Shown here: positions 4,523-64,000 of the stretch, one piece after another | How positions within the stretch are numbered: the first letter of the stretch is position 1 | Layout: the number at the start of each line of letters is the position of its first letter | Source: Phycisphaerae bacterium | GTDB lineage: Bacteria > Planctomycetota > Phycisphaerae > Phycisphaerales > SM1A02 | Assembly: GCA_002709295.1 (NCBI GenBank) | Contig: PAQL01000031.1 | Span: forward strand, 1 to 64,000 | DNA: 64,000 nt | Direction: 5' to 3' | The notes under the pieces: generated by a model | Database searches by the model: none | The model's input: only the letters and a program-made list of their open reading frames with translations | What the model was told of the DNA's origin: nothing | Translations under genes and position numbers: made by a program

Positions 4523-4596
4523 GCGGGCGTCGTATAATGGCATTACCTGAGCTTCCCAAGCTCATGACGAGGGTTCGATTCCCTTCGCCCGCTCCA
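4523..4596 (+). tRNA. tRNA-Gly(CCC), prophage integration site
   Basis: The 7-bp acceptor stem is GCGGGCG / CGCCCGC. The anticodon stem TGAGC / GCTCA closes the loop TTCCCAA with anticodon CCC. The TTC-containing T arm and an encoded CCA end at 4594-4596 are present. The prophage entered within the 3' part (from 4553), but its end restores an intact 3' half, so this copy should be functional. Confidence 0.95.
4553..4596 (+). repeat. attL: 44-bp direct repeat, left prophage junction
   Basis: The segment TTCCCAAGCTC...CGCTCCA, running from the anticodon loop to CCA, recurs identically at 48520-48563. Flanking bases differ on both sides (left GC/right GA before it; left G/right C after it). This is the classic tRNA-gene footprint of a tyrosine recombinase. 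Confidence 0.93.
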
Positions 4597-16253: not shown

Positions 16254-17279
16254 TCAGCTCCGGGTCAGGGCGAATTCGTTCAGGATTGCAGCGGTGGTGT
16301 TGTGGGCATTGCAGTGCTTGGCGTAGGCCAGGTAGCTCATCAGGCGGGCGCGAGCGCGGTCGGCGTCGAGCACGCCTGCGCCGTACAGCGCGCGGGTGCG
16401 GGCGAGCAGTTTGCGGGCGCGCTTGATGTTGCGTTTGCGCGGTAACCGGTGGGTGGCCCAGGTGCGGTAGCCGCAGAAGTCCACGCCACAGGGCGCCGGC
16501 AGGATGCAGGTCTTGGGGTTGAGCCGAAGGCCTAGGCGCGTGACTTCGTCCTCCAGGGCGACGAGCGTGGCGTGGGCGGCCTGCTTGGTCGGCAGGACGA
16601 TCACGGTGTCATCCATGTAGCGCACGTAGCGGCCCACGCCGCAGTGGTCGATCATGTGGTGGTCCAACTGGTCGAGCAGCACGTTCGCCGATAGCTGGCT
16701 GGTCAGGGCGCCGACGGGCAGGCCCAGGCCGTCGTCGTGGCCGTAGCCGCGGGCGATGGCGCGCCACAGCGCCAGGGTGCGCGGGCAGCTGATCACCCGG
16801 CGGATGGCGGCGAACAGCACGTCGTGGTCGATGCTGGCGAAGTAGCTCTTGATGTCGGCCTTGATGAGGTACGGCTTGGTGCTCTCGCGCTGGGCGGCCC
16901 GAATCATCTGCTGCACGGCGCGGCAGGCGCGCTGCGAGCCCTTGCCGGCGCGGCAGGCGTAGCTGTGATGGATGAAGCGGCGCTCGAACAGCGGCTCCAC
17001 CACCCGCACCAGGGCGTGGTGCACGATGCGATCGGCAAACGGCGGCGCCTGGATGTCGCGCAGTTTGGGCTCGTGCACACGGAACTCGCGCGCCCTGCCC
17101 GGCCGCCAGCTGCCCCACACCAGATGGTTGTGGATGTTGAGCAGGTTTTCCTCAAGGTTGATCGAGAACAGCGCCACCTCGCGGCGATACCGCTTGCCCC
17201 GGCGAGCGGCCAGGTAGGCCGCCATCAGGTTGTCGAAGTCCGCGATCTGGTCGTACAGGTGTGCATGCGTGATCGGCAC
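16254..17279 (-). CDS. DGR reverse transcriptase
   Basis: The 341-residue product copies the TR RNA into cDNA with random changes at adenines. Visible motifs are domain A ADIKSYF (141-147), the DGR-type domain 4 signature VGALTSQ (189-195, where most RTs have QGxxxSP), and the YMDD active site (221-224). A C-terminal thumb follows to LNEFALTRS. I chose the GTG at 17279 because AGGAGG lies immediately upstream and the protein then starts VPITHAHLYDQI. No maturase or integrase domain is present, which separates it from group II intron RTs. It lies after TR in the order target, avd, TR, RT. Confidence 0.95.
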   Translation of the reverse strand: MPITHAHLYDQIADFDNLMAAYLAARRGKRYRREVALFSINLEENLLNIHNHLVWGSWRPGRAREFRVHEPKLRDIQAPPFADRIVHHALVRVVEPLFERRFIHHSYACRAGKGSQRACRAVQQMIRAAQRESTKPYLIKADIKSYFASIDHDVLFAAIRRVISCPRTLALWRAIARGYGHDDGLGLPVGALTSQLSANVLLDQLDHHMIDHCGVGRYVRYMDDTVIVLPTKQAAHATLVALEDEVTRLGLRLNPKTCILPAPCGVDFCGYRTWATHRLPRKRNIKRARKLLARTRALYGAGVLDADRARARLMSYLAYAKHCNAHNTTAAILNEFALTRS

Positions 17280-17438
17280 GCTCCCTCCTTGTTGAGGCCG
17301 GTGGCCACGTTCGGCCCTCGTGGCGCTACTTGCCGCCACCGGCAGTTGATCTTCGGCGCAAAGCGCCAGGACAGACGCCCCGAAGGAAAGGCGCTGGAAG
17401 GCAGCCCGTGGGCTGCCAGCTTCTGGCCGTGTCATTCG

Positions 17439-17559
17439 TTCGCCAGGCGGGCACCGATGTTGCTGTTCGTGTTCGACGTCGAGTTGTTGACGTTGACATA
17501 CCACAGCCCCGCATTCGCGGCGTTGTTCCAATTGCCGCCCGCGATCGGGAAGTACTCGC
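17439..17559 (-). repeat. DGR template repeat (TR)
   Basis: This 121-bp non-coding segment lies between avd and the RT gene. It aligns without gaps to VR at 17986-18106, with 12 mismatches. On the coding strand every mismatch is an A in TR (to G ten times, T once, C once); no other base differs. TR holds about 30 adenines, many in AAC/AAT codons that let the matching VR codon vary widely. It lacks a start codon and would be transcribed leftward with the RT. Confidence 0.97.
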
Positions 17560-17584
17560 ACTATTGAGCGTCTGCCCTTGTTGC

Positions 17585-17977
17585 TCATTTCTGCGCCGCC
17601 TTCAGCCAGCCGCCCACCATCCGTCCGATCTGGCCGACATGTTCGGACCAGACCTGGTAGCGGTGGGCGTTGATGTATTGCAGGCGCAGGCTCTTGCGAA
17701 TCCAGCCGCGGAGCACCTCGATCTCGACGTCGAGATCCTTGAGGGTGCTCTGCTTGTGGTATCGCTTCCAGGCAGTGATGGTCAGGCGCTGGATCTTGTT
17801 CAGCGACTGGCGGATCTCCGCGCACAGCAGGTGTCGCTCGAGCTTGGGGTACTGCAGGAGTGCCGCATGGCTGTACCCCTCCAGATCCTCGAGCCGAGCG
17901 AGCAGCTGCGCGTAGTGATGCGCCGGCCCTGTCGGCGGGCTCTCGCCCGCCTTCTCATGACTCAAGAGGCCAGACAC
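17585..17977 (-). CDS. avd: DGR accessory variability determinant Avd
   Basis: The 130-residue helical basic product (ends GQIGRMVGGWLKAAQK) fits the Avd family, a four-helix-bundle protein that forms a pentamer and binds the RT and TR RNA. Length and position between VR and TR are typical. I chose the GTG at 17977, which overlaps the target gene stop and has AAGG upstream; a TTG at 17965 is an alternative. The first codons overlap the DGR hairpin. Confidence 0.88.
   Translation of the reverse strand: MSGLLSHEKAGESPPTGPAHHYAQLLARLEDLEGYSHAALLQYPKLERHLLCAEIRQSLNKIQRLTITAWKRYHKQSTLKDLDVEIEVLRGWIRKSLRLQYINAHRYQVWSEHVGQIGRMVGGWLKAAQK
17934..17951 (-). promoter_or_regulatory. DGR target-site hairpin downstream of VR
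   Basis: On the coding strand, GGCGGGC, a GAGA loop and GCCCGCC form a perfect 7-bp hairpin 28 bp after the target-gene stop. Hairpin/cruciform elements with a GRNA tetraloop, 3' of VR, are known to promote retrohoming in the BPP-1 DGR. The stem length, loop and place all match. It lies inside the 5' end of avd. Confidence 0.85.
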
Positions 17978-17978
17978 A

Positions 17979-20504
17979 TCACACCTTCGCCAGGCGGGCA
18001 CCGAGGTTGCTGTACGTGTTCGACGCCGAGCTGCCGACGTTGACACACCACAGCCCCGCATCCGCGGCGTTGCTCCAACCGCCGCCCGCGACCGGGAAGT
18101 ACTCGCCCGACGTCGACATGTACTGCAGGTCCGGCGCGGTGGCATTGCTGTTGCTGGTCGGGCCGGTGTCGCCGAGGAACACATCCTCCAGATCCCAGCC
18201 GGCGCCCTGGCCGTCCATGAAGGTGGTCGGGTAGATCGGCCCCGTTGCAGCTGCGCGTGCCTTGGTGCTGACCCAGCTCTTGTTGCCGTTCTGGTCCCAC
18301 AGGTTGACCGCGCCGTTGACCGTCTTGAGCCCGTCCATCCACTGGTACACGTTGCCCCACAGCCCGACGATGCCCCGGTAGCTCGCCTGCGCCACATCCG
18401 TTGCGTCGACGTTGGCGGCGGCGGATGCGTTGACGCGCCCTTGCCCGGTCTTGGTCTGGCTGTCCATGGTTGCGTTTTCGACCAGGTACAGCCACTGGAT
18501 GGCCGACCAGTGGAAGGCGCTCCAGAGCATGAAGCCGGTCACGCCGCTGACGTTGCGGGCGTTTGCATCGGCGATGAACTGCGTCAGCGAGCGGCTGACG
18601 GCCGGCAGCACGCCGGCGACCGAGGCGAGCTTGCTGCTCTGCAGGCTGGCCTGGTACTTGCCGATGTAGATCTGATCCAAGTCCGCGCCGGCGTTGCGGA
18701 ACGCCGGGTGCAGGCGGTAGCCCGAGACCGGCTGGTCCGACACCCACCAGGCTTCCTTACCCGCGTTCGCGCCAGCCGCGATGGTGGCGCGGCGGATGTA
18801 GAACTTCGGGATGCGCACCATCGCCTGGCCGTCGATGGTGACGTCCTGGATGCCGCCGAACACCGGGTGGGCGTTGAAGTAAGACGTCCCTGGGGCCGTG
18901 ACAGTGGCGCCGTCAGCATCCACATAGGCCCAGGTGCCGCCATTCCCGCCGGTGGTGATCAGCGCCACGCCGGCGACGTTGGCGAAGGCCTGCTTGGTGG
19001 TGATCTTCACCTCGCTCGAGTACTCGGACCAACCGCGGCTGCTGCCCTTGTGCCGGGCGCGCAGGTAGTAGGCGTTCTGGCCTGCCTGCAGCACGCCGGC
19101 CGGCAGCGTGCGGGACAGCCTGTTGGTCACGTCTTCGCCTGAATCCCACAATGGGGCTTCCCACGTCCCTGTCGAGGTGCGGACTTGCCACTGGGTGGCG
19201 GCGTGGGTATCGGTGGCGCCGACAACGGCGAAGGCGCCGGTCTGCAGGGTTGGGGTTTCACCGATGTCGGTTGCGTTGTTGGCCGGGGCGACCAGTGCCG
19301 GTGCTGCGACGTAGGCGAAGCTCGCAGCAGTGGTGAAGTTGCTTGCCGCGGACCAGTCAGACCAGAGGCCGGAGGCGTCCTGCACGCGACCGCGAACGTG
19401 GTATTGCGTGCCGGTGTTGAGAATGCCGGCGGGCAACGTGTACGACAGGCCGGCAGGGAGCGCGCCGGAGTCATGGGTGATAGTGGTAAAGGTCGCGCCG
19501 GTCGACAGCTGGAATTGCAGTCCCGCCTGGGGGGTGCCACCCGGGCTGGCGTAGCTGCCAATCGCCAGGGTCGGGCGCTCGAAGATGCCGGTGGCGCCGT
19601 TCGCGGGAGAGCTTATCGCCGGGGCGCTTGGCCGCATTGCTGGGTTGGTGAAGCCGCCGAGGCCGGTGGCCGCGGAGATCGCGACGATGTGACGGACGAC
19701 TATCGGCTCGCCCTCGATGTCGAGGCGCAGGGAGCCGTCGCCGCGCATCGGCAGGATGTACTCGTAGTCGGCGAAGCCGGCGGGGATGTCGCCACCCTGG
19801 CGGCGCACCGACCAGACGCGCTCGGTCCACGCGGCGTGGTACTGGTCGCGGAAGTACAGGCGGGCCTCGCCGCTGTTCAGGCTGCGGCGGATGATGACCG
19901 CGCCGCCCTCGATGTCGGCGCCGATGTTGACCGGGCGCGACAGCCAGATGTCGCCGACCGCGCCCTCGGCGTAGGCGGCGCCCTGCTGGTCGAGCGAGCA
20001 GCGGGTCAGCACGCCGCCGGCGAAGCCGCGGGTCAGGTTGCTGGCCACGCGGATGCGGTTTTCGCTGAGGATGGTCACGCACTGGATCAGCAGCGAGCCC
20101 TCGGCGTCGGACAGGACGTAGAACTCGCCCGGGCGCAGCTGGGCGGTGCTCTGCACGTCGACCGAGTCGTCGCCGCTGACGGCCTGCAGGATCGGGGTGT
20201 CGATGGCGTCGATCAGGGTGAAGCCCGGCGCCCACAGCTCGAAGGCGATGCGGTTGTCGCGGTAGAGCCAGTCGAGCGTGACGGCGCGTTGCACGGACAC
20301 GTTGCTGGTTTCTTCCAGGGAGCCCACGCGTTCAGCGACCTCGGTGATGCTCAGGCCGGTGCTTTCGACGGCCTCGCGCAGCCAGACGTCGTTGTTGATC
20401 AGGACGTTGTAGTTGGGGTTCCAGGTGTCGGGGTGACGAGGATCGGTGGTCTCCAGCTGGCGGACGTGGTCCTGGAAAGTCGGGGTGCCGGTGATGTTGG
20501 CCAT
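17979..20504 (-). CDS. Tail fibre protein, DGR target with C-type-lectin-fold tip
   Basis: The 841-residue product starts MANITGTPTFQDHVRQLETT, a fibre N-terminus that anchors to the baseplate. The middle has two or more fibronectin-like repeats (ALVAPANNATDIGETPTLQTG and a similar APAISSPANGATGIFERPTL). The C-terminus (about 560-841: GTSYFNAHPVFGG, then MVRIPKFYIRR, WMDGLKTVNGAVNLWD and GGGWSNAADAGLW) is the formylglycine-generating-enzyme-like/C-type-lectin domain common in DGR targets. The variable residues at the end would form the receptor-contact surface. GAGG precedes the ATG at 20504. Confidence 0.93.
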   Translation of the reverse strand: MANITGTPTFQDHVRQLETTDPRHPDTWNPNYNVLINNDVWLREAVESTGLSITEVAERVGSLEETSNVSVQRAVTLDWLYRDNRIAFELWAPGFTLIDAIDTPILQAVSGDDSVDVQSTAQLRPGEFYVLSDAEGSLLIQCVTILSENRIRVASNLTRGFAGGVLTRCSLDQQGAAYAEGAVGDIWLSRPVNIGADIEGGAVIIRRSLNSGEARLYFRDQYHAAWTERVWSVRRQGGDIPAGFADYEYILPMRGDGSLRLDIEGEPIVVRHIVAISAATGLGGFTNPAMRPSAPAISSPANGATGIFERPTLAIGSYASPGGTPQAGLQFQLSTGATFTTITHDSGALPAGLSYTLPAGILNTGTQYHVRGRVQDASGLWSDWSAASNFTTAASFAYVAAPALVAPANNATDIGETPTLQTGAFAVVGATDTHAATQWQVRTSTGTWEAPLWDSGEDVTNRLSRTLPAGVLQAGQNAYYLRARHKGSSRGWSEYSSEVKITTKQAFANVAGVALITTGGNGGTWAYVDADGATVTAPGTSYFNAHPVFGGIQDVTIDGQAMVRIPKFYIRRATIAAGANAGKEAWWVSDQPVSGYRLHPAFRNAGADLDQIYIGKYQASLQSSKLASVAGVLPAVSRSLTQFIADANARNVSGVTGFMLWSAFHWSAIQWLYLVENATMDSQTKTGQGRVNASAAANVDATDVAQASYRGIVGLWGNVYQWMDGLKTVNGAVNLWDQNGNKSWVSTKARAAATGPIYPTTFMDGQGAGWDLEDVFLGDTGPTSNSNATAPDLQYMSTSGEYFPVAGGGWSNAADAGLWCVNVGSSASNTYSNLGARLAKV
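17986..18106 (-). repeat. DGR variable repeat (VR)
   Basis: This is the last 121 bp before the stop of the tail-fibre gene, encoding about residues 800-840. Compared with TR it differs at 12 adenine-derived positions, changing ten residues: I to V, N to G, N to S, N to D, Y to C, N to G, N to S, T to A, N to Y and I to L. The invariant framework residues (GLW, GARLA) are kept. The pattern shows past adenine mutagenesis. Confidence 0.97.
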
Positions 20505-45313: not shown

Positions 45314-45916
45314 ATGAGCATGAAGATGGCAAAACCATCGGGCGATGACATTCAGGCAGCCGAAGAGCTGATGCAGATTCTGCAGCTCATTGATGCCCGC
45401 TTCGGCGGCCCGTGGGCCAACCCGGACGCAGGGGACAGCATCAGCGAATTGCTGCAGGACGGTGAAAAAGAGTTCGACGGCGAGAACATCACCCACCTGC
45501 AGACCCTCTACAACAACCTGGCACGCCTGCTGCGCTGCACACCGAACTTCTACGGGCGCGTTATCAGCGGCATGTGCCACGTGATCATGTACCCGAAGAA
45601 CGAGATTCTCGACCCTGAGTCGGACTGTATTGACCTGCACCCACGCTTCGCCCAGCTGGCTGTAGAAGCCAGCCGCACGGCAGAGCTGGAGGCAGAGAAC
45701 GCCGCGCTTCGCGCCGCACAGACCGAGCAGCACATCCATACCGCCGGCCAACGACTCTATGAAGAACTGCGCCAGTGGCTGGCAACAGAGCATGACCCCG
45801 ATAGTCAGGCGGCGCTACAGGCGTGGCGCGAAGCCATCGCGCAGACCGCCCCTCAGCATTCGGACGACGAAGCCGTCGACCGCTTCGCCGCAGTGCATGT
45901 GAGGGGCCATGAATGA
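45314..45916 (+). CDS. Hypothetical phage protein
   Basis: The 200-residue product (MSMKMAKPSGDDIQAAEELM...) has a helical N-terminus with LMQILQLIDARFGGPW and a long C-terminal coiled coil (ELEAENAALRAAQTEQHIH). I cannot name a family. Its stop codon overlaps the start of the methyltransferase gene. Confidence 0.65.
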   Translation: MSMKMAKPSGDDIQAAEELMQILQLIDARFGGPWANPDAGDSISELLQDGEKEFDGENITHLQTLYNNLARLLRCTPNFYGRVISGMCHVIMYPKNEILDPESDCIDLHPRFAQLAVEASRTAELEAENAALRAAQTEQHIHTAGQRLYEELRQWLATEHDPDSQAALQAWREAIAQTAPQHSDDEAVDRFAAVHVRGHE

Positions 45917-46658
45917 GCTGGCTCTTTTCGCGGGTGCTGGTGGAGGAATTCTCGGCGGCCACCTCTTGGGATGGCGCACCGTCTGCGCCGTTGAGCGTAA
46001 TGCCCACGCTGCACAGATTCTCGCGCAACGACAAAACGATGGAGCCCTCCCAGCTTTCCCGATTTGGTCTGACGTGTGCAGTTTTGACGGAAGACCGTGG
46101 CGCGGCCTTATTGACCTGGTTTCGGGCGGCTTCCCCTGCCAGGACATCAGCAACAGTGGCGAGAAAGAAGGCATCGAAGGCGCGCGCAGCGGACTGTGGA
46201 AAGAAATGTCGCGCATCGTTCGCGAAGTTGGACCGCGCTACGTCTTCGTGGAGAACGTCGCAGCTCTCCTTGTTCGAGGAATCGACGTCGTCCTCGGTGA
46301 CCTGGCCGCGATGGGGTTTGATGCTCGATGGGGAGTGCTGGGATCTGCCGACTGTGGCGGCCACCAAACCCGAGAAAGGGTATGGATTATGGCCGACGCT
46401 CAAGGCCTCAGATGGCGAACAGCGGACATCGAACCTGGAGTACTTCAAGCGACGCTTGACCGTATCGCCGGATCTTCCAGTGATCGTGGCTTTGAGTACG
46501 CCTCCGACCTCAAGGGGATTCTACGGCCGACTAAACCCGGATTGGTGCGAGTGGTTGATGACGTGGCCCATCAAGTGGACCGAATTAGAGCCATTGGAAA
46601 TGGACAGGATCCACGAGTGGCAGCGGCAGCATTCACTCTGCTGGCTGAAGAGGAATGA
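45909..46658 (+). CDS. C5-cytosine DNA methyltransferase (Dcm-like)
   Basis: The 249-residue product has the ordered motifs of a cytosine-5 methyltransferase: motif I LFAGAGGGILGG (6-17), motif IV GGFPCQDIS with PCQ (73-81), motif VI VENVAALL (114-121), motif VIII QTRERVW (153-159) and motif X RAIGNGQDPRVAAAAF. It is short; the target recognition region is compressed to about 45 residues, so activity is uncertain. It may protect phage DNA from host restriction. The same DNA is open in a second frame. Confidence 0.85.
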   Translation: MNELALFAGAGGGILGGHLLGWRTVCAVERNAHAAQILAQRQNDGALPAFPIWSDVCSFDGRPWRGLIDLVSGGFPCQDISNSGEKEGIEGARSGLWKEMSRIVREVGPRYVFVENVAALLVRGIDVVLGDLAAMGFDARWGVLGSADCGGHQTRERVWIMADAQGLRWRTADIEPGVLQATLDRIAGSSSDRGFEYASDLKGILRPTKPGLVRVVDDVAHQVDRIRAIGNGQDPRVAAAAFTLLAEEE

Positions 46659-47166: not shown

Positions 47167-48366
47167 CTACGGCTTCACGCCAGCCACATCTACAAGCCAG
47201 GTAGCCCAATCCTCGAGGCCCTGGCTTTTTTCTTTCAGGTAGTCGTAGCGGTCATAGTGCTTCGACGACACATCGCTGAACGCATGCCCCTGGATGCGAT
47301 CGCGCAGTTCCTTGCTGATCCCCGCCACACCCATCAGCGTCTTGCAGGTGCGCCGCAGGTCGCGCAGCGTGAATGGCGTCTTGAACGTGTCCGGGTGCCG
47401 CGCGCAAAGCTTCGTCACCGCCCTCGACACGGACTGCACGTTGATTGAGTTGTTCTTATACCGGCCCATGAACGGAAAGGCCTCTTCGCCGGAGATCGGT
47501 TTCAGCCGCTCCAGGCAGGCGCGGCTCAGGTCGTTGAACGGCACCACATGAATCTCCCGCTCGCCTTCTACGCCCTTCTTGCTGCGGATCATGTAGTAGT
47601 CGTCGCGGTACATCGTGCGGTCTGATGCCACCACCTGCTCCGGCCGCTGCCCACCGCTGGCAATCAGGAACTTGATCAGCTCCGCCGTGACCAGGCTCAG
47701 TTCCTCGGGCAGCAGGTTCCACAGCGCCGCCAGCTCTTCCTTGCTCAGCACGCGCTGGCCGGGGCGCTCCCAATCGCCCTGCACGGGGATGCTCGCCACC
47801 GGGTTATAGGTCAACCCGAAGCGCACTTTCGACTTGAGGTAGTCCCGCGGGTTGTATTCCTGGTTGAGCCCGTGCTGGAACGCCGCGTGCAGCTGCGACC
47901 GCACCCGGTTGCAGTAGGTGGTCACCTTCGCCTTGATCATCGCGGAGATTATGTCGCGGATATCCCCGGGCTCGATGGCGCTGGCCAGCTTCTTCACCAG
48001 GTGCGGGAACGGCTCAGAGACATAGTGCTTGAGCGACCATTCCACGTTACCGGCCGAGGCCGCGCCTTCGGCTTTCAACTTGGCCACATACGAATCGAGC
48101 AGGTTCTGCAGCGTGCCCTCCGCTTCACTCTGCGGCGAGGCCCCTTTGCACTTGTCGCGCGCAACGGTGAGCGACATCGTTGGCCACACGCCGAGCTTGC
48201 GTTGCTTCTTCTTGCCGGCCACGAACCACTGGTAGTAGAACTCTTTCGTGCCGTTGGCGCGAACCTTCAGCAGCAGCACCCCTTCCCCGCGCGCACCGCG
48301 CCCGTCGGACATCACATAGTCGCGGTCTTCTGGCTTGAGCGAACGGATCTGCTTTTCGGTTAGCAT
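47167..48366 (-). CDS. int: Prophage tyrosine integrase
   Basis: The 399-residue product has an N-terminal DUF4102-type domain (YVMSDGRGARGEGVLLLKV, FYYQWFVAGKKKQRKLGVWP). A C-terminal catalytic domain follows: arginine in GGQRPEQV, LRDLRRTC (second arginine), histidine in QGHAFSD and tyrosine in HYDRYDY. It should insert the phage into tRNA-Gly. The ATG at 48366 lacks a strong ribosome-binding site. The gene ends beside AlpA and starts near attR. Confidence 0.93.
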   Translation of the reverse strand: MLTEKQIRSLKPEDRDYVMSDGRGARGEGVLLLKVRANGTKEFYYQWFVAGKKKQRKLGVWPTMSLTVARDKCKGASPQSEAEGTLQNLLDSYVAKLKAEGAASAGNVEWSLKHYVSEPFPHLVKKLASAIEPGDIRDIISAMIKAKVTTYCNRVRSQLHAAFQHGLNQEYNPRDYLKSKVRFGLTYNPVASIPVQGDWERPGQRVLSKEELAALWNLLPEELSLVTAELIKFLIASGGQRPEQVVASDRTMYRDDYYMIRSKKGVEGEREIHVVPFNDLSRACLERLKPISGEEAFPFMGRYKNNSINVQSVSRAVTKLCARHPDTFKTPFTLRDLRRTCKTLMGVAGISKELRDRIQGHAFSDVSSKHYDRYDYLKEKSQGLEDWATWLVDVAGVKP

Positions 48367-48367
48367 G

Positions 48368-48390
48368 CGTGACAGTTTCCGGTGACAGTT
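48368..48390. promoter_or_regulatory. Candidate right-arm integrase sites
   Basis: Two decamers, CGTGACAGTT and GGTGACAGTT, occur at 48368 and 48381, just upstream of the integrase ATG. They match those near attL (4634-4686). They may also serve integrase autoregulation. Confidence 0.5.
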
Positions 48391-48519
48391 GTCCCGAACT
48401 AACACGAAATTCAGCGGGACAAATTGAGACTGAGCCGGAAGCCCCAGCCCATACAGGACTGGGATTGTAGCGCCTTTACGATACCTCGCGTTATACCCTG
48501 ATATTTGGCCCGCTATAGA

Positions 48520-48563
48520 TTCCCAAGCTCATGACGAGGGTTCGATTCCCTTCGCCCGCTCCA
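48520..48563 (+). repeat. attR of the prophage and probable attL of the ICE
   Basis: This 44-bp copy of the tRNA-Gly 3' part lacks the 5' half and is not a working tRNA gene. It sits between the prophage integrase and the ICE integrase, 238 bp before the latter. Elements of the ICEclc type also use the 3' end of tRNA-Gly, so the site appears to serve both elements. Confidence 0.88.
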
Positions 48564-48706: not shown

Positions 48707-48801
48707 ATTTTTGCGGGCGCGGCTGATTCCGGATTGTTGATGGAGGGGCGAGGTCGACGTGACCAGCATCTGGTTCCTGACTCATGTTCAGGAGCAAGAG
48801 C

Positions 48802-50655
48802 ATGGCACTCTCAGACCTGGCCGTTCGGCAGGCCAAGGCAACTGGCAAGGCATACACCCTCCCTGACTTGGATGGCCTCTCCCTGGCCGTCACGGCTGCA
48901 GGGGGCAGGACTTGGCACTTCCGCTACTACTGGGCGGGCAAGCAGAAGCGGATGTCGCTCGGCACCTACCCGGAGGTGACGCTTCGCGAGGCCCGCAGCC
49001 TGCGCGACGAAGCGCGCGCCCTGCTGGCCAAAGGCACCAATCCTCGCGTTCACCGCAAGCAGAAGCGCACCGCTGTCCGGCTCGCCGACGAAAACACCTT
49101 CGAGGCGGTGTATCGCAAGTGGCTCAAGCATCGCGGGCTCAGCCTCAAGGAAGGCCGGCAGACGACCCTTTCGATACTTCCGCGCATCTTCGACAAGGAT
49201 GTGCTGCCCGCCTTGGGCAAGCGGTCGGTCTATGAGATCAAGCGTCCCGACCTCTTGGAGGTGATTGCCAAGATCGAGAAGCGCAGGGCGCTCTCCGTCG
49301 CCGAGAAAGTCAGGACGTGGTTCAACCAACTGTTCCGCTACGCGCTGGTGATCGTGCCGGGCCTGGAGCAGAACCCTGCCTCCGATCTCGATGTGGTGGC
49401 GCTGCCGCTGCCACCCGTCAACCACAACCCGTTCCTGCGCATGGCCGAGCTGCCGAAGCTGTTGCAGCGGCTGCGCAGCTATCGCGGCAGGCGGCAGACC
49501 CAGCTCGGGCTGCGGCTGTTGCTGCTGACCGGCGTGCGAACCGGCGAGCTGCGACAGGCGATGCCGGATCAATTCGATCTGGACCGTGGGTTGTGGATCA
49601 TCCCGCCCGACGTCGTGAAGCAACTCCAGTTGGATATGCGCAAGAAGCGGCAGCAGCCGAAGGACATCCCGCCCTACATCGTGCCTTTGTCGATTCAGGC
49701 CATGGAGATCGTCCGGCACCTGCTTGATGAGTTCAAGCCGGCCCAGCGCTACCTGTTCCGGCACGACAGCGACTTGAAGAAGCGCATCAGCGAGAACACG
49801 CTCAATGGTGCCCTCAAGCGCATGGGCTATCAGGAACGCCTGACCGGACACGGCATCCGCGGCACGATGTCCACTGCGCTCAACGAGATCGGCTACCCGA
49901 AGGTCTGGGGGGATGCACAGCTCTCGCATGTCGATCCCAACAAGGTCAGCGCGACCTACAACCATGCCGAGTACGTGGAGCAGCGTCGCCGCATGATGCA
50001 GGACTGGGCCGATCGGCTCGACCTCTTCGAGCAGAACCAGGTCGAGGCGGCCAGCATGCCGCTCACCGTGCATCTGGAAGGCGTGCCCGCGTTCCCGAAT
50101 GAGCAAACCGCAAGCGCACCCTCCACGCCGGTTGCCGCTTCGCCAATCCTGCTCGTGACGAAGCCGGGTGACGCCATGCCGTTGGTTTCTGCCGCCGCAC
50201 ATCGGCTGCCGGCGGTTCCGCCCCCTCGATCGGCCGCGCCGCTGGTGCCTTCGGACATTCAGCGCGAGAGGATGGAACTGTTCGATGTCTTCGAAGCGCC
50301 GCACAACCTTCCCGTCGCGGCGTTTGCCAAGATGGCGGGCAAGTCCCGCAGGTGGATCAGCTACGAGATCAAGGCGGGCAACTTGCTGGCGTTGAACGTG
50401 GGCAACCGCGGCCAGCGCGTGCCGGATTGGCATCTCGACCCACTCAAACACGAGCTGATCCAGTCCGTCCTCAAGCTGACCAGGGGTGCGGACCCTTGGC
50501 AGATCTACCATGCACTGCTGCAACCGCGCTCGATGCTGCGGGGGCATTCGGCACTGGAGGGCGTGACGGCCAGCAATCTCGACAAGCTCGTCATGGCAGT
50601 GAGCGCAGCCGTGAAGGAAAGCGAATGGACCCCGCTGCGAGTCGGAGTCGCCTAG
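48802..50655 (+). CDS. intB: ICE tyrosine integrase, IntB13-like
   Basis: The 617-residue product is a P4-type integrase with an N-terminal DUF4102 domain (about 10-95) and a catalytic core. Visible are the arginine in TGVRTGEL (near 250), HGIRGTM (about 353-359), QLSH and the tyrosine in YNHAEYVE (near 396). A further 200 residues extend the C-terminus (ERMELFDVF ... DPWQIYHALLQPRSM), typical of the long ICEclc-type integrases. AGGAG precedes the ATG at 48802. Confidence 0.93.
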   Translation: MALSDLAVRQAKATGKAYTLPDLDGLSLAVTAAGGRTWHFRYYWAGKQKRMSLGTYPEVTLREARSLRDEARALLAKGTNPRVHRKQKRTAVRLADENTFEAVYRKWLKHRGLSLKEGRQTTLSILPRIFDKDVLPALGKRSVYEIKRPDLLEVIAKIEKRRALSVAEKVRTWFNQLFRYALVIVPGLEQNPASDLDVVALPLPPVNHNPFLRMAELPKLLQRLRSYRGRRQTQLGLRLLLLTGVRTGELRQAMPDQFDLDRGLWIIPPDVVKQLQLDMRKKRQQPKDIPPYIVPLSIQAMEIVRHLLDEFKPAQRYLFRHDSDLKKRISENTLNGALKRMGYQERLTGHGIRGTMSTALNEIGYPKVWGDAQLSHVDPNKVSATYNHAEYVEQRRRMMQDWADRLDLFEQNQVEAASMPLTVHLEGVPAFPNEQTASAPSTPVAASPILLVTKPGDAMPLVSAAAHRLPAVPPPRSAAPLVPSDIQRERMELFDVFEAPHNLPVAAFAKMAGKSRRWISYEIKAGNLLALNVGNRGQRVPDWHLDPLKHELIQSVLKLTRGADPWQIYHALLQPRSMLRGHSALEGVTASNLDKLVMAVSAAVKESEWTPLRVGVA

Positions 50656-53811: not shown

Positions 53812-54732
53812 TCAGCTCTGGCCCAAGCCGGTGTCGAGGGCGGCGGATTGCGCTGCGAAGTCGTCGGGACGGCGCTTGCGGAAGGTTTCGAGATTGGCGA
53901 GCTTCCAGCGCAGTGCCGGCAGTTGAGCGGCGTGTGGGCATTGCACCAGCGACCAGTCCGGTTCTGCGCGCGCCAGCCCGCTCAGAAACTGCTTGTGCGC
54001 GGTGCTCAGTCGCTGTGGCAGCTCGCGCCGCACCCTGGCGCGAGCGTCGAGCAGTGTCTCCAGGGAGCAGCCCACTTCGGTCATGCCGACAAAGGCCCGC
54101 TCGTACTCGCCGGCGATGTCCTTGTCGTTGCCGAACAGCACTTCGTGGGGGGGCCGGTTGTGGCCCGCCAGATAGATCACGAAGCACTCGACCATGCCGT
54201 CGCTGATGTCGCCCGACTCAAAGAGCTGCCACACGTCGAACAGGTCGCGGGGGTGCTGCCGATCCAGCGCGGCCACCAGCTTGCTGGCGTACAGCTCGTC
54301 CGGTGCCAGAACCGGCAGCTCGAACTCGACGCCGAACAGATCGCTGGTCCTGGCGCTCAGCGGCCGCCGCTCGACGGGCAGCACGCTGCCTCGGAACACG
54401 ACGTTGACCTCGATCTTCACCTGGCTGGCGTCGTTCTCGACGATCAGCTTGGTGTCGCCCAGGTCCTTGGCGCGAACCAGGCGTGTCTGCACGCCCAGTG
54501 GTGCAACGCGCGCGGCGATGGCGGCCAGCTCCTGGTTGATGGCTTGCAGCGCTTCGTCGCGCGGCGTCTGCCATGGGAGGTACACCACGTCGATGTCCAC
54601 CGACAGGCGCGGCATGTCCCGCACGAAGAGGTTGATGGCCGTGCCGCCCTTCATGGCGAAGATGTCGTTGGCGAACACGTCGGGCGCGACGGCCAGCAGC
54701 AGGCGAACGGTGTCCGCGTAGGTCTTATCCAT
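53812..54732 (-). CDS. abiEii: AbiEii-type nucleotidyltransferase toxin
   Basis: The 306-residue product has the DUF1814 nucleotidyltransferase motifs GGTAINLF and LSVDIDVVY (the DxD pair), with EVNVVFRGSVLP and KLVAALDRQHPRDLFDVWQL. AbiEii toxins halt growth on phage infection; the family includes tRNA nucleotidyltransferases. It overlaps the antitoxin gene by 8 nt. It is ICE cargo. Confidence 0.9.
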   Translation of the reverse strand: MDKTYADTVRLLLAVAPDVFANDIFAMKGGTAINLFVRDMPRLSVDIDVVYLPWQTPRDEALQAINQELAAIAARVAPLGVQTRLVRAKDLGDTKLIVENDASQVKIEVNVVFRGSVLPVERRPLSARTSDLFGVEFELPVLAPDELYASKLVAALDRQHPRDLFDVWQLFESGDISDGMVECFVIYLAGHNRPPHEVLFGNDKDIAGEYERAFVGMTEVGCSLETLLDARARVRRELPQRLSTAHKQFLSGLARAEPDWSLVQCPHAAQLPALRWKLANLETFRKRRPDDFAAQSAALDTGLGQS

Positions 54733-55483
54733 GAGGTTTCAGGCTCAGCAAGGTGCCGTCATCGAGCCGGCTCATCCAGCGCGTGTTGCTGCCGGTGCGA
54801 ACCGGGTGCTGCTCCAGCAGGGCATCGACATCCACGAGGCTGGTCTCGCGCGCCCAGGTCAGGAACAGGCGCACGGCCTTCACGCTGGCGCAGCAGGACA
54901 GCAGTTGCCCGAGCAAGTCCTTGCGGGGGGAACGCAGTCCATCAAAGAGGTTGCGGGCCTCTTCGAGGCTCTGCTTGACGCCGGCTTCGTACAGCATCTC
55001 CAGCACGGCACGCTCGGGGGCTGCCACCCGCAGATCCTCGGGCAGGCCCGGCGGCGTGGTCAGGGTCTTGGCGGCCAGCGCCGTGTCCGGCCAGTCGAAC
55101 AGGCGGGCGTGGACATAGCGGGCCGGAAAGCGCGAAGTGAACCAGGCCGGCAACGCGAAGCGACCGTCGCCCCACAGCACCAGCGCCTCCCGGCTGCCCA
55201 GGTTGTGCCGCACACCCTGCAGGGCCAGGGCGCTCTTGCCGCCGACGTGCAGGCCGGGCACGCGCTGTTGCAGGAACTTCAGCGCACCGTAGACCCCGAA
55301 TTCATCGTTCGGGAAGGCATAGACGCCATGGGCCAAGCGCACGAGCCATCCGCCGTCGGCATAGTGGGCGGCGAGCTGGGGCGACACCCCGAACTGGCTC
55401 AGGGTGGCAAGGTCGAACGGCGCCCCGCGGGGGAGTCCCGCCTGCAGCCGCTTGATTACCTGGTGCCTAGAATTTCCATCCAT
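54725..55483 (-). CDS. abiEi: AbiEi-type antitoxin and regulator
   Basis: The 252-residue product has an N-terminal winged-helix region (LPRGAPFDLATLSQFGVSPQLAAHYADGGWLVRLAHGVYAF) and a central AbiEi antitoxin domain (VGGKSALALQGVRHNLG). It neutralises AbiEii and represses the operon. The ATG at 55483 is followed upstream by a clear palindrome. Upstream readings of the frame lack a start with a good ribosome-binding site. Confidence 0.9.
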   Translation of the reverse strand: MDGNSRHQVIKRLQAGLPRGAPFDLATLSQFGVSPQLAAHYADGGWLVRLAHGVYAFPNDEFGVYGALKFLQQRVPGLHVGGKSALALQGVRHNLGSREALVLWGDGRFALPAWFTSRFPARYVHARLFDWPDTALAAKTLTTPPGLPEDLRVAAPERAVLEMLYEAGVKQSLEEARNLFDGLRSPRKDLLGQLLSCCASVKAVRLFLTWARETSLVDVDALLEQHPVRTGSNTRWMSRLDDGTLLSLKPHG

Positions 55484-55498
55484 GCTATAAAAATAGCA
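55483..55498. promoter_or_regulatory. Operator of the AbiE pair
   Basis: TGCTAT-AAAA-ATAGCA is a perfect 6+4+6 inverted repeat directly at the start codon of abiEi. AbiEi proteins bind inverted repeats in their own promoter, so this is a good operator candidate. Confidence 0.65.
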
Positions 55499-55706
55499 CG
55501 GAATCCAATCAGCCCCTAGAGCTATCGCAGGAACGCGCAGGGAAAGTAGCATAAGGTTTTATTTATCATGCAGAATCTAATCGACCTGCGACCCAGGCCG
55601 ACCCGGCTCTGCCAGCCGCAACCCGCCCTCCTGGTCGCGGTCTATGCTGGAGGGCAAGCCCCAACCGGCCGCTCCATGAGGTGAGGCACCACTGAAGCCG
55701 AGGCAC

Positions 55707-62393: not shown

Positions 62394-64000
62394 TCAGGCC
62401 AGCGTGTCCAGCGTCAGAGGTTCGATGCCCCGCGCGCGGTCGATCTTCTCGGCCACGCGGAAGGCGGCATCCAGCTCGCTGATGCCGTGCTGCTGCATCA
62501 ACTGGAAGCGTTCGGCCTTCTCCTCGGGCTCGGTCATCGCCATCGCCAGGTAGAGGCTGGGCGGCACGGCGCGGAACAGCACCTCCATCGACTTGGACAG
62601 GATGACGCCCTCGCTGAACTTGCCGGCCTCCTTGCGCGCCGAGAGCATCAGCGCCTTCTGCGAAGCGTTGAGTTCGCGGAAGCGCGCGATCTTCTCCACT
62701 TCATCGGGTGGCATCGACAGGCAGATCCACCACTCGATCATGTTGAGCATGGGCTCGGCCGCCTTCGGCAAGTCGTCGAGGTTCTGCGTGGCGAGCCAGA
62801 ACCAGGCGCCGAGCTTGCGCCACATCTTGGTGATCTTGACCACGTAGGGCGCGAGCAGCGGGTTCTTCGTGATGATGTGGCCTTCGTCCGTCACGTTGAT
62901 GATCGGACGGCCCAGGAACTGGTCGCGCTCGGCGATGTTGTTGACGGTGTTGATGAGCGAGATGTAGGCAATCGAGAGTTGGGCGTTGTAGCCCTCGCGC
63001 GCGAAGGTGGCCAGGTCCACGATGGTGATGTCCGCCTCGGGCCACGGCGTGCCGGACCGGTCGAACATCTCGCCGTCCACGTCCTGGCAGAACATATCCA
63101 TGGCGTCGGCCATCTCCAGCAGCCGTGCGCGCCGCATCTCCGGCAGCGTGGCGTCGCGGGCGCGCTCGCGCAGCGCGTCGCGCACATCGCGCGTGAGCAC
63201 CGTGCGTCTGTCCGCCACGCAATGCTGGGCCGCATCGAGAATGCACTGGCGGATCAGGCTGCGGTCGGCGCGCGTCATGCGCGCTTCTTCCTTGTCCTCG
63301 CCGCCGGTAATCATCAGCCGTGCAGTGATCTCCAGCTCGCCGAGCACGTCGCGCTGCTCGTCGCCTTCCACGGCCATGCCGGCATCGGTCTGGTCTTCGT
63401 CGAGCGCATCGGCGTCCAGCGTCTGTACCTGGCTCGGCGTATCGACCAGGCGCCAGGCGTCGGCGAACGGAGCCAGACTGACGCCCGCGCCCGGCGCGAG
63501 CTTCACCCGATGCACGGTGAGGCCCAGCCGTGCCGCGAAGTCGCCGAACAGGCCGAAGCTGTTGCCCGCCTCGACGATGAACAGGCGCGGCCGGTAGATC
63601 GCCGTCACCTGGTTCAGGATGTTGTTGAGCGTCGCGCTCTTGCCCGAACCCGTGGGGCCGAACAGGAATAGATGCGCGTTCATCTGCCGGTCGAGGCGGT
63701 TCAACGGATCGAAGGTGATCGGGCCGCCGCCGCGGTTGAAGAACGTGATGCCCGGATGCCCCGTGCCCTGACTGCGGCCCCAGACCGGCGCCAGGTTCGC
63801 CGCATGTTGCGCGAACATGAGCTGGGTGTACCACTGGCGCTTGTCGGCCGCCGGATCGAACACGCACGGCAGCCAGCGTAGATAGCTGTTCAGCGGCGCC
63901 ACCTCGTCCTCTTCGCGTACCGGTTGCAGGCCGGCGTTGAGCATCACGTTGACGAGCTGCAGGCCGCGCGCATCGAGCTGGGCCAGGTCGCGGCCGCGCA
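62394..64000 (-). CDS. Conjugative transfer ATPase, TIGR03744/VirB4-like, partial
   Basis: The visible C-terminal part has 535 residues and continues beyond the window. Walker A is FGPTGSGKSATLNN, and a Walker B-like segment WFWLATQNLDDLP follows. It matches the PFL_4706/TIGR03744 ATPase family that powers the type IV secretion channel at the inner membrane. The frame stays open to base 64000; its start is outside. Confidence 0.92.
   Translation of the reverse strand, partial: RGRDLAQLDARGLQLVNVMLNAGLQPVREEDEVAPLNSYLRWLPCVFDPAADKRQWYTQLMFAQHAANLAPVWGRSQGTGHPGITFFNRGGGPITFDPLNRLDRQMNAHLFLFGPTGSGKSATLNNILNQVTAIYRPRLFIVEAGNSFGLFGDFAARLGLTVHRVKLAPGAGVSLAPFADAWRLVDTPSQVQTLDADALDEDQTDAGMAVEGDEQRDVLGELEITARLMITGGEDKEEARMTRADRSLIRQCILDAAQHCVADRRTVLTRDVRDALRERARDATLPEMRRARLLEMADAMDMFCQDVDGEMFDRSGTPWPEADITIVDLATFAREGYNAQLSIAYISLINTVNNIAERDQFLGRPIINVTDEGHIITKNPLLAPYVVKITKMWRKLGAWFWLATQNLDDLPKAAEPMLNMIEWWICLSMPPDEVEKIARFRELNASQKALMLSARKEAGKFSEGVILSKSMEVLFRAVPPSLYLAMAMTEPEEKAERFQLMQQHGISELDAAFRVAEKIDRARGIEPLTLDTLA

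Follow-up and report, generated by a model that had tools for sequence, protein, structure and literature searches.

A complete diversity-generating retroelement with a tail-fibre target in a prophage on contig PAQL01000031.1

Can a prophage rewrite the tip of its own tail fibre? The question is raised by a locus at positions 16254-20504 of the first 64,000 nucleotides of contig PAQL01000031.1 (assembly GCA_002709295.1, deposited as a Phycisphaerae bacterium), a stretch referred to below as the window. An initial annotation described the locus as a diversity-generating retroelement (DGR) in which a fibre gene with a variable repeat (VR) at its 3' end is followed by avd, a template repeat (TR) and a reverse transcriptase (RT) gene. 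The parts do lie in this order on the minus strand, at the positions originally given. We consider it nearly certain that the locus is a complete phage DGR with the layout of Bordetella phage BPP-1 (target with VR, avd, TR, RT) and with all parts intact. It is a well-preserved example of a known system and no new type of system, and comparison with its relatives indicates that it is active within its lineage; none of the tests run contradicts its reading as a DGR.

The first evidence is in the repeats. The 121-nt TR (17559-17439, minus strand) and the 121-nt VR (18106-17986, minus strand; fibre codons 801-839) give a gapless alignment with an offset of 547 and form the longest imperfect two-copy repeat within 15-22 kb. 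They differ at 12 of 121 positions, every one a TR adenine on the coding strand as first claimed (10 A>G, 1 A>T and 1 A>C); with adenine at 30/121 TR positions, the naive chance of 12/12 is 5e-8. Exact alignment reveals no non-adenine mismatch inside the VR. The sole one nearby, C in the TR and G in the VR at 17985, falls just beyond the VR end and is the expected boundary between the initiation-of-mutagenic-homing (IMH) region of the VR and its TR counterpart (IMH*), not an exception within the repeat; from 17985 onward the two diverge (GAAGGTGTGA vs GAACGAATGA). By analogy with BPP-1, the VR 3' end at 17979-18005 on the minus strand (CTCGGTGCCCGCCTGGCGAAGGTGTGA) would serve as the IMH region. 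Ten fibre residues between 805 and 834 differ from the TR-encoded version, the number reported originally. The TR is also well suited to variation: 18 of its codons bear adenine, every A in its whole codons is at codon position 1 or 2, the triplets AAC and AAT account for ten codons, and no codon can become a stop by adenine change, which sets an upper bound of 3.8e16 encoded variants. The assembly bin was searched and holds a single TR, a single VR and a single RT; no further VR was found across the whole bin, which is not the host genome and does not cover the host chromosome.

The second line of evidence comes from relatives, drawn from the metagenomic viral contigs of IMG/VR. The five closest elements are that of the window and four others (L038, L029, L030 and L031), whose RTs are 84-99% identical to the window RT; they resemble it in the cassette and tail region and differ from it in their VR alleles. 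Aligning TR and VR across these related elements, as the initial annotation had proposed, uncovers TR-linked, adenine-only VR variation. Nor is the VR fixed among them, the outcome that the initial annotation had named as a refutation: L031 and L038 have TRs identical over 121 nt, and 18 positions, all of them TR adenines, separate their VRs. Different VRs on near-identical TRs in close relatives imply that the lineage was recently active. An adenine-biased repeat pair is also present in most of 94 wider RT relatives. One of the more distant elements, L024 (candidate division KSB1), combines a single TR with five partner copies, all adenine-biased and lying within 8.5 kb, and is likely a multi-target DGR.

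Three points weigh against an active DGR of BPP-1 type. Activity is read from the sequences of the lineage rather than from the current VR population of this lysogen; the four other elements are metagenome contigs rather than cultured sister strains; and our model of the RNA between TR and RT (described below) matches the BPP-1 spacer weakly, at 12.7 bits and at the TR end only. The first of these bears on the alternative that survives best, namely that the DGR was once active and is now silent in this lysogen, with a VR fixed since the prophage is unexpressed or non-inducible. Repression is common in lysogens, and this genome supplies a single VR sequence. Yet all genes are open, the RT motifs, target-site hairpin, RNA helices and VR reading frame are intact, and the allelic variety just described speaks for recent activity in the lineage; we judge a silenced element unlikely.

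It is far less probable still that the VR differences arose without the RT, by point mutation and positive selection or by recombination with other fibres. Selection on fibre tips is strong, and the fibre and cassette region is indeed mosaic between phages. Between 23.3 and 18.5 kb, across the baseplate and most of the fibre, L030 matches the window at 97-100% identity, and from the fibre 3' end through the RT at only 76-88%, whereas L038 has the opposite pattern (99% across the avd-to-RT cassette, 70-94% in the baseplate and fibre). These opposite patterns suggest that the DGR and the fibre tip travel together, apparently swapped as one block among phages that are otherwise almost identical. 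What the repeats contain, however, is not what either selection or recombination with unrelated fibres would predict. Pooled over the five closest elements, 57/57 TR-VR differences fall at TR adenines, with a naive chance of ~1e-35 (by our own calculation, which treats as independent events that are not wholly so). Between elements the TRs also differ at 1-11 non-adenine positions per pair, and in every pair each VR matches its own TR there, so information flowed from TR to VR. The combined pattern is, as far as sequences can tell, the expected trace of TR-to-VR copying with adenine-specific errors.

The RT itself is 341 aa long (16254-17279, minus strand); the gene proper starts at 17279 with a GTG behind a good ribosome site (AAGGAGGG), not at the open reading frame start at 17825. 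Its translation contains the motifs VGALTSQ and YMDD noted at the outset, both confirmed in relatives, which carry xGxxxSQ. It matches phrog_1423 (phage DGR RT; 2.2e-120) and RVT_1 (2.8e-20), and its closest solved structure by sequence is 8ub7 (6e-51), which we take to be the BPP-1 bRT-Avd-RNA complex. In a maximum-likelihood tree of 63 RTs, with three non-DGR RTs bearing an SP motif as outgroup, the window RT falls among DGR RTs, pairing with L038 and then with L029-L032; the non-DGR RTs stay outside with support 100/99. The BPP-1 and Pseudomonas phage Bise RTs lie on long branches, and their exact placement is unsure. That the enzyme is a defence, retron or group II intron RT beside an incidental repeat is hardly credible and was rejected, since its matches to group II, retron and Drt family models all lie far below curated cut-offs and those to PADLOC RT models are weak, while the phrog_1423 and 8ub7 matches, the SQ rather than SP motif, the separate clade and the adjoining avd and TR/VR all identify a DGR enzyme. 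The avd gene (17585-17977, minus strand) starts directly behind the fibre stop, at a GTG at 17977 or a TTG at 17965. Its product, a four-helix-bundle accessory protein by family models, matches bAvd (PF22296, 2.5e-22) and phrog_3206 (2e-29) and passes the NCBIfam equivalog NF033474 (96.8 bits, cutoff 80).

Between the TR and the RT, covariation points to a conserved structured RNA that spans the TR 3' end and the spacer up to the RT start (17280-17470, minus strand). In a first alignment of 12 close relatives, 14/40 pairs have changes on both sides, with a covariation score of 0.340 against 0.182 in shuffled and at most 0.114 in slid alignments. A second, disjoint alignment, built from 14 relatives at greater distance and folded anew, gave the same three spacer hairpins, with 23/37 pairs changed on both sides and a score of 0.554 (0.187 shuffled, at most 0.144 slid). 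Matches to the first model set the limits of its sequences, but aligning and folding them did not use that model. The TR-proximal helices differ between the two alignments, and so we claim only the three spacer hairpins (minus strand; 17417-17400, 17367-17355 and 17341-17299). In most of the RT relatives searched, Bacillota included, a covariance model locates the RNA at the junction of TR and RT. An Rfam scan of 16.9-18.4 kb returned no match, so the spacer is not covered by any catalogued RNA family, and no published comparative model of the spacer RNA was found in the literature that could be searched. Because the BPP-1 spacer folds and recruits the RT-Avd complex (PMC12875486), a similar function is to be expected here.

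At the target end, a perfect 7-bp DNA hairpin with the loop GAGA (GGCGGGC-GAGA-GCCCGCC; 17951-17934, minus strand) stands 34 nt beyond the VR, within the first avd codons. No other hairpin in the window combines a GRNA loop with a stem of at least 7 bp, and this one agrees with the published rule for phage DGRs of a 7-10 bp stem and a GRNA loop downstream of the VR (PMC3240598). Of 53 distinct loci, 31 have such a hairpin 26-40 nt beyond the end of the aligned VR. Their stems are of 14 kinds, their loops are GATA, GAGA, GGTA, GGGA, GAAA and GACA, and the rate in shuffled sequence is 0.0001. None of the 53 has one after the TR, which fits one-way transfer.

The target is an 841-aa protein (17979-20504, minus strand), identified as a tail-fibre or receptor-binding protein by family match and AlphaFold model. 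It has a fibronectin/Ig-like middle followed by a C-type-lectin-type variable domain at about residues 550-841, and residues 557-839 match the phrog_5302 tail protein (4.7e-37). The last 300 residues were modelled from a 36-sequence alignment (predicted local distance difference test score, pLDDT, 84.7). The best structural match of this model is the Thermus aquaticus variable protein TaqVP (PDB 5vf4), with Z 26.8 over 254 residues at 24% identity, followed by TvpA (Z 13.7) and Mtd (Z 12.6). As modelled, the VR domain has the C-type-lectin fold of DGR variable proteins, and the likeness to TaqVP extends over the whole C-terminal 300 residues, in a different host.

Taken as a record of TR-to-VR copying, these sequences would fit RT-dependent mutagenic retrohoming, which we would picture on the BPP-1 scheme. 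The TR region and structured spacer would be transcribed, and the RNA would bind an RT-Avd complex assembled as in BPP-1. Self-primed, again as in BPP-1, the RT would copy the TR and misincorporate opposite adenines, and the mutated cDNA would take the place of the existing VR at the fibre gene's 3' end. On the BPP-1 model, two signals would direct homing: the GC-rich end of the VR and, a short way beyond it, the GRNA hairpin. The TR, with no hairpin, would remain unchanged. The outcome could be up to about 4e16 C-type-lectin receptor-binding tips without stop codons. By analogy, we infer that the prophage may switch receptor specificity, as the initial annotation proposed.

The element shares with the BPP-1 DGR (mtd-VR, avd, TR, brt; NC_005357) the gene order, orientation and Avd, a similar repeat size (121 nt here, 134 nt in BPP-1) with adenine-biased TR/VR differences, a GC-rich VR end, a hairpin near the avd start, a structured spacer and a lectin-fold target. 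It differs in that its RT is only 35% identical to that of BPP-1, its target is a fibre with fibronectin-like domains that is nearer to TaqVP than to Mtd, its host phage appears to be a P2-like contractile-tail prophage, and the BPP-1 spacer is unrecognised beyond the TR end by the RNA model built here. The Pseudomonas phages Bise (OR683401) and SC_8_H2H8_2017 (MT121966) likewise have adenine-biased TR/VR pairs and RTs with DGR motifs, although these RTs are about 35-36% identical to that of the window. In Bise (L135, 3001-3830), 9/9 TR/VR differences are at adenines; SC_8_H2H8_2017 (L137, 2480-3980) has one TR and two VRs, with 9/10 and 15/15. This is thus not the first DGR in a Pseudomonas phage. 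Neither phage record carries a DGR annotation. The RT of the P2-like Burkholderia phage KS5 was judged by its authors unlikely to act like Brt (PMC3091744), and KS5 is therefore no precedent. More than 30,000 DGRs, many of them in phages and broadly active, have been catalogued from metagenomes (PMC8144416).

The prophage as a whole occupies about 44.0 kb (4553-48563) between perfect 44-bp direct repeats (attachment sites attL, 4553-4596, and attR, 48520-48563); attL is the 3' part of tRNA-Gly(CCC) (4523-4596), and an integrase gene (47167-48405) lies at the right end. The tail genes are P2-like (sheath, tube, baseplate and tape measure), and a terminase is also present. By its P2-type tail gene order, integrase and attachment sites, the prophage is assigned to the temperate phages with a P2-like contractile tail. 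Its sheath and tube are 78% identical to those of phage PS17 and its lysis genes 83% identical to those of Stutzerimonas phage PG1, and a P. aeruginosa phage record contains a tRNA-Gly site 98.7% identical to this one. Near the right end, 45903-46658 may encode a C5 cytosine DNA methylase (PF00145, 6e-31, a match confined to the model's N-terminal half).

The initial description of a Pseudomonas prophage stands, at about family level, for the contig's own content and fails for the assembly with which the contig was binned. In tetranucleotide profile, the other sampled contigs of the bin lie 0.06-0.13 from their mean, and this contig (135,938 bp) lies 0.35-0.48 from it. The bin 16S gives partial matches, mostly 73-79%, to proteobacterial plasmid-borne 16S; this shows that the bin is another organism and gives no identity for the contig. 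The bin RpoB had no match in the PDB at 1e-50, for a query whose reading frame may be wrong. Since the composition is mismatched and the bin 16S is far from proteobacterial, we conclude that the contig is misbinned; its own genes, including a flanking gammaproteobacterial-like metG, point to Pseudomonadaceae.

Behind the prophage there appears to be an integrative conjugative element in tandem at the same tRNA-Gly site, from 48520 to the window end at 64000 and on to about 132,300 of the contig. It has an integrase (48784-50655), a TraG-like gene and an AbiEi/AbiEii abortive-infection pair (53812-55552; PADLOC 4e-64 and 2e-113), and part of it matches a P. veronii plasmid at 91% identity. A third, 18-bp copy of the attachment site (TTCCCTTCGCCCGCTCCA) is found at contig position 132,293; presumably this 18-bp tRNA-Gly site recalls ICEclc-type elements.

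For the host, it follows that any label derived from the bin would be incorrect. For DGRs, existing understanding of how they work is left unchanged. Tentatively, we raise the possibility that the spacer belongs to a widespread, undescribed RNA family (in many Proteobacteria and some Bacillota), recognisably distinct from that of BPP-1 and, if so, usable to find and classify DGRs, and that cassettes move between phages with their VR as an exchangeable specificity module. Covariation in disjoint sets supplies testable helices for the part of the DGR RNA that recruits RT-Avd in BPP-1 (PMC12875486). The close relatives of this element, finally, offer a natural experiment in which one template has many VR outcomes and the cassette is apparently swapped between near-identical phages.

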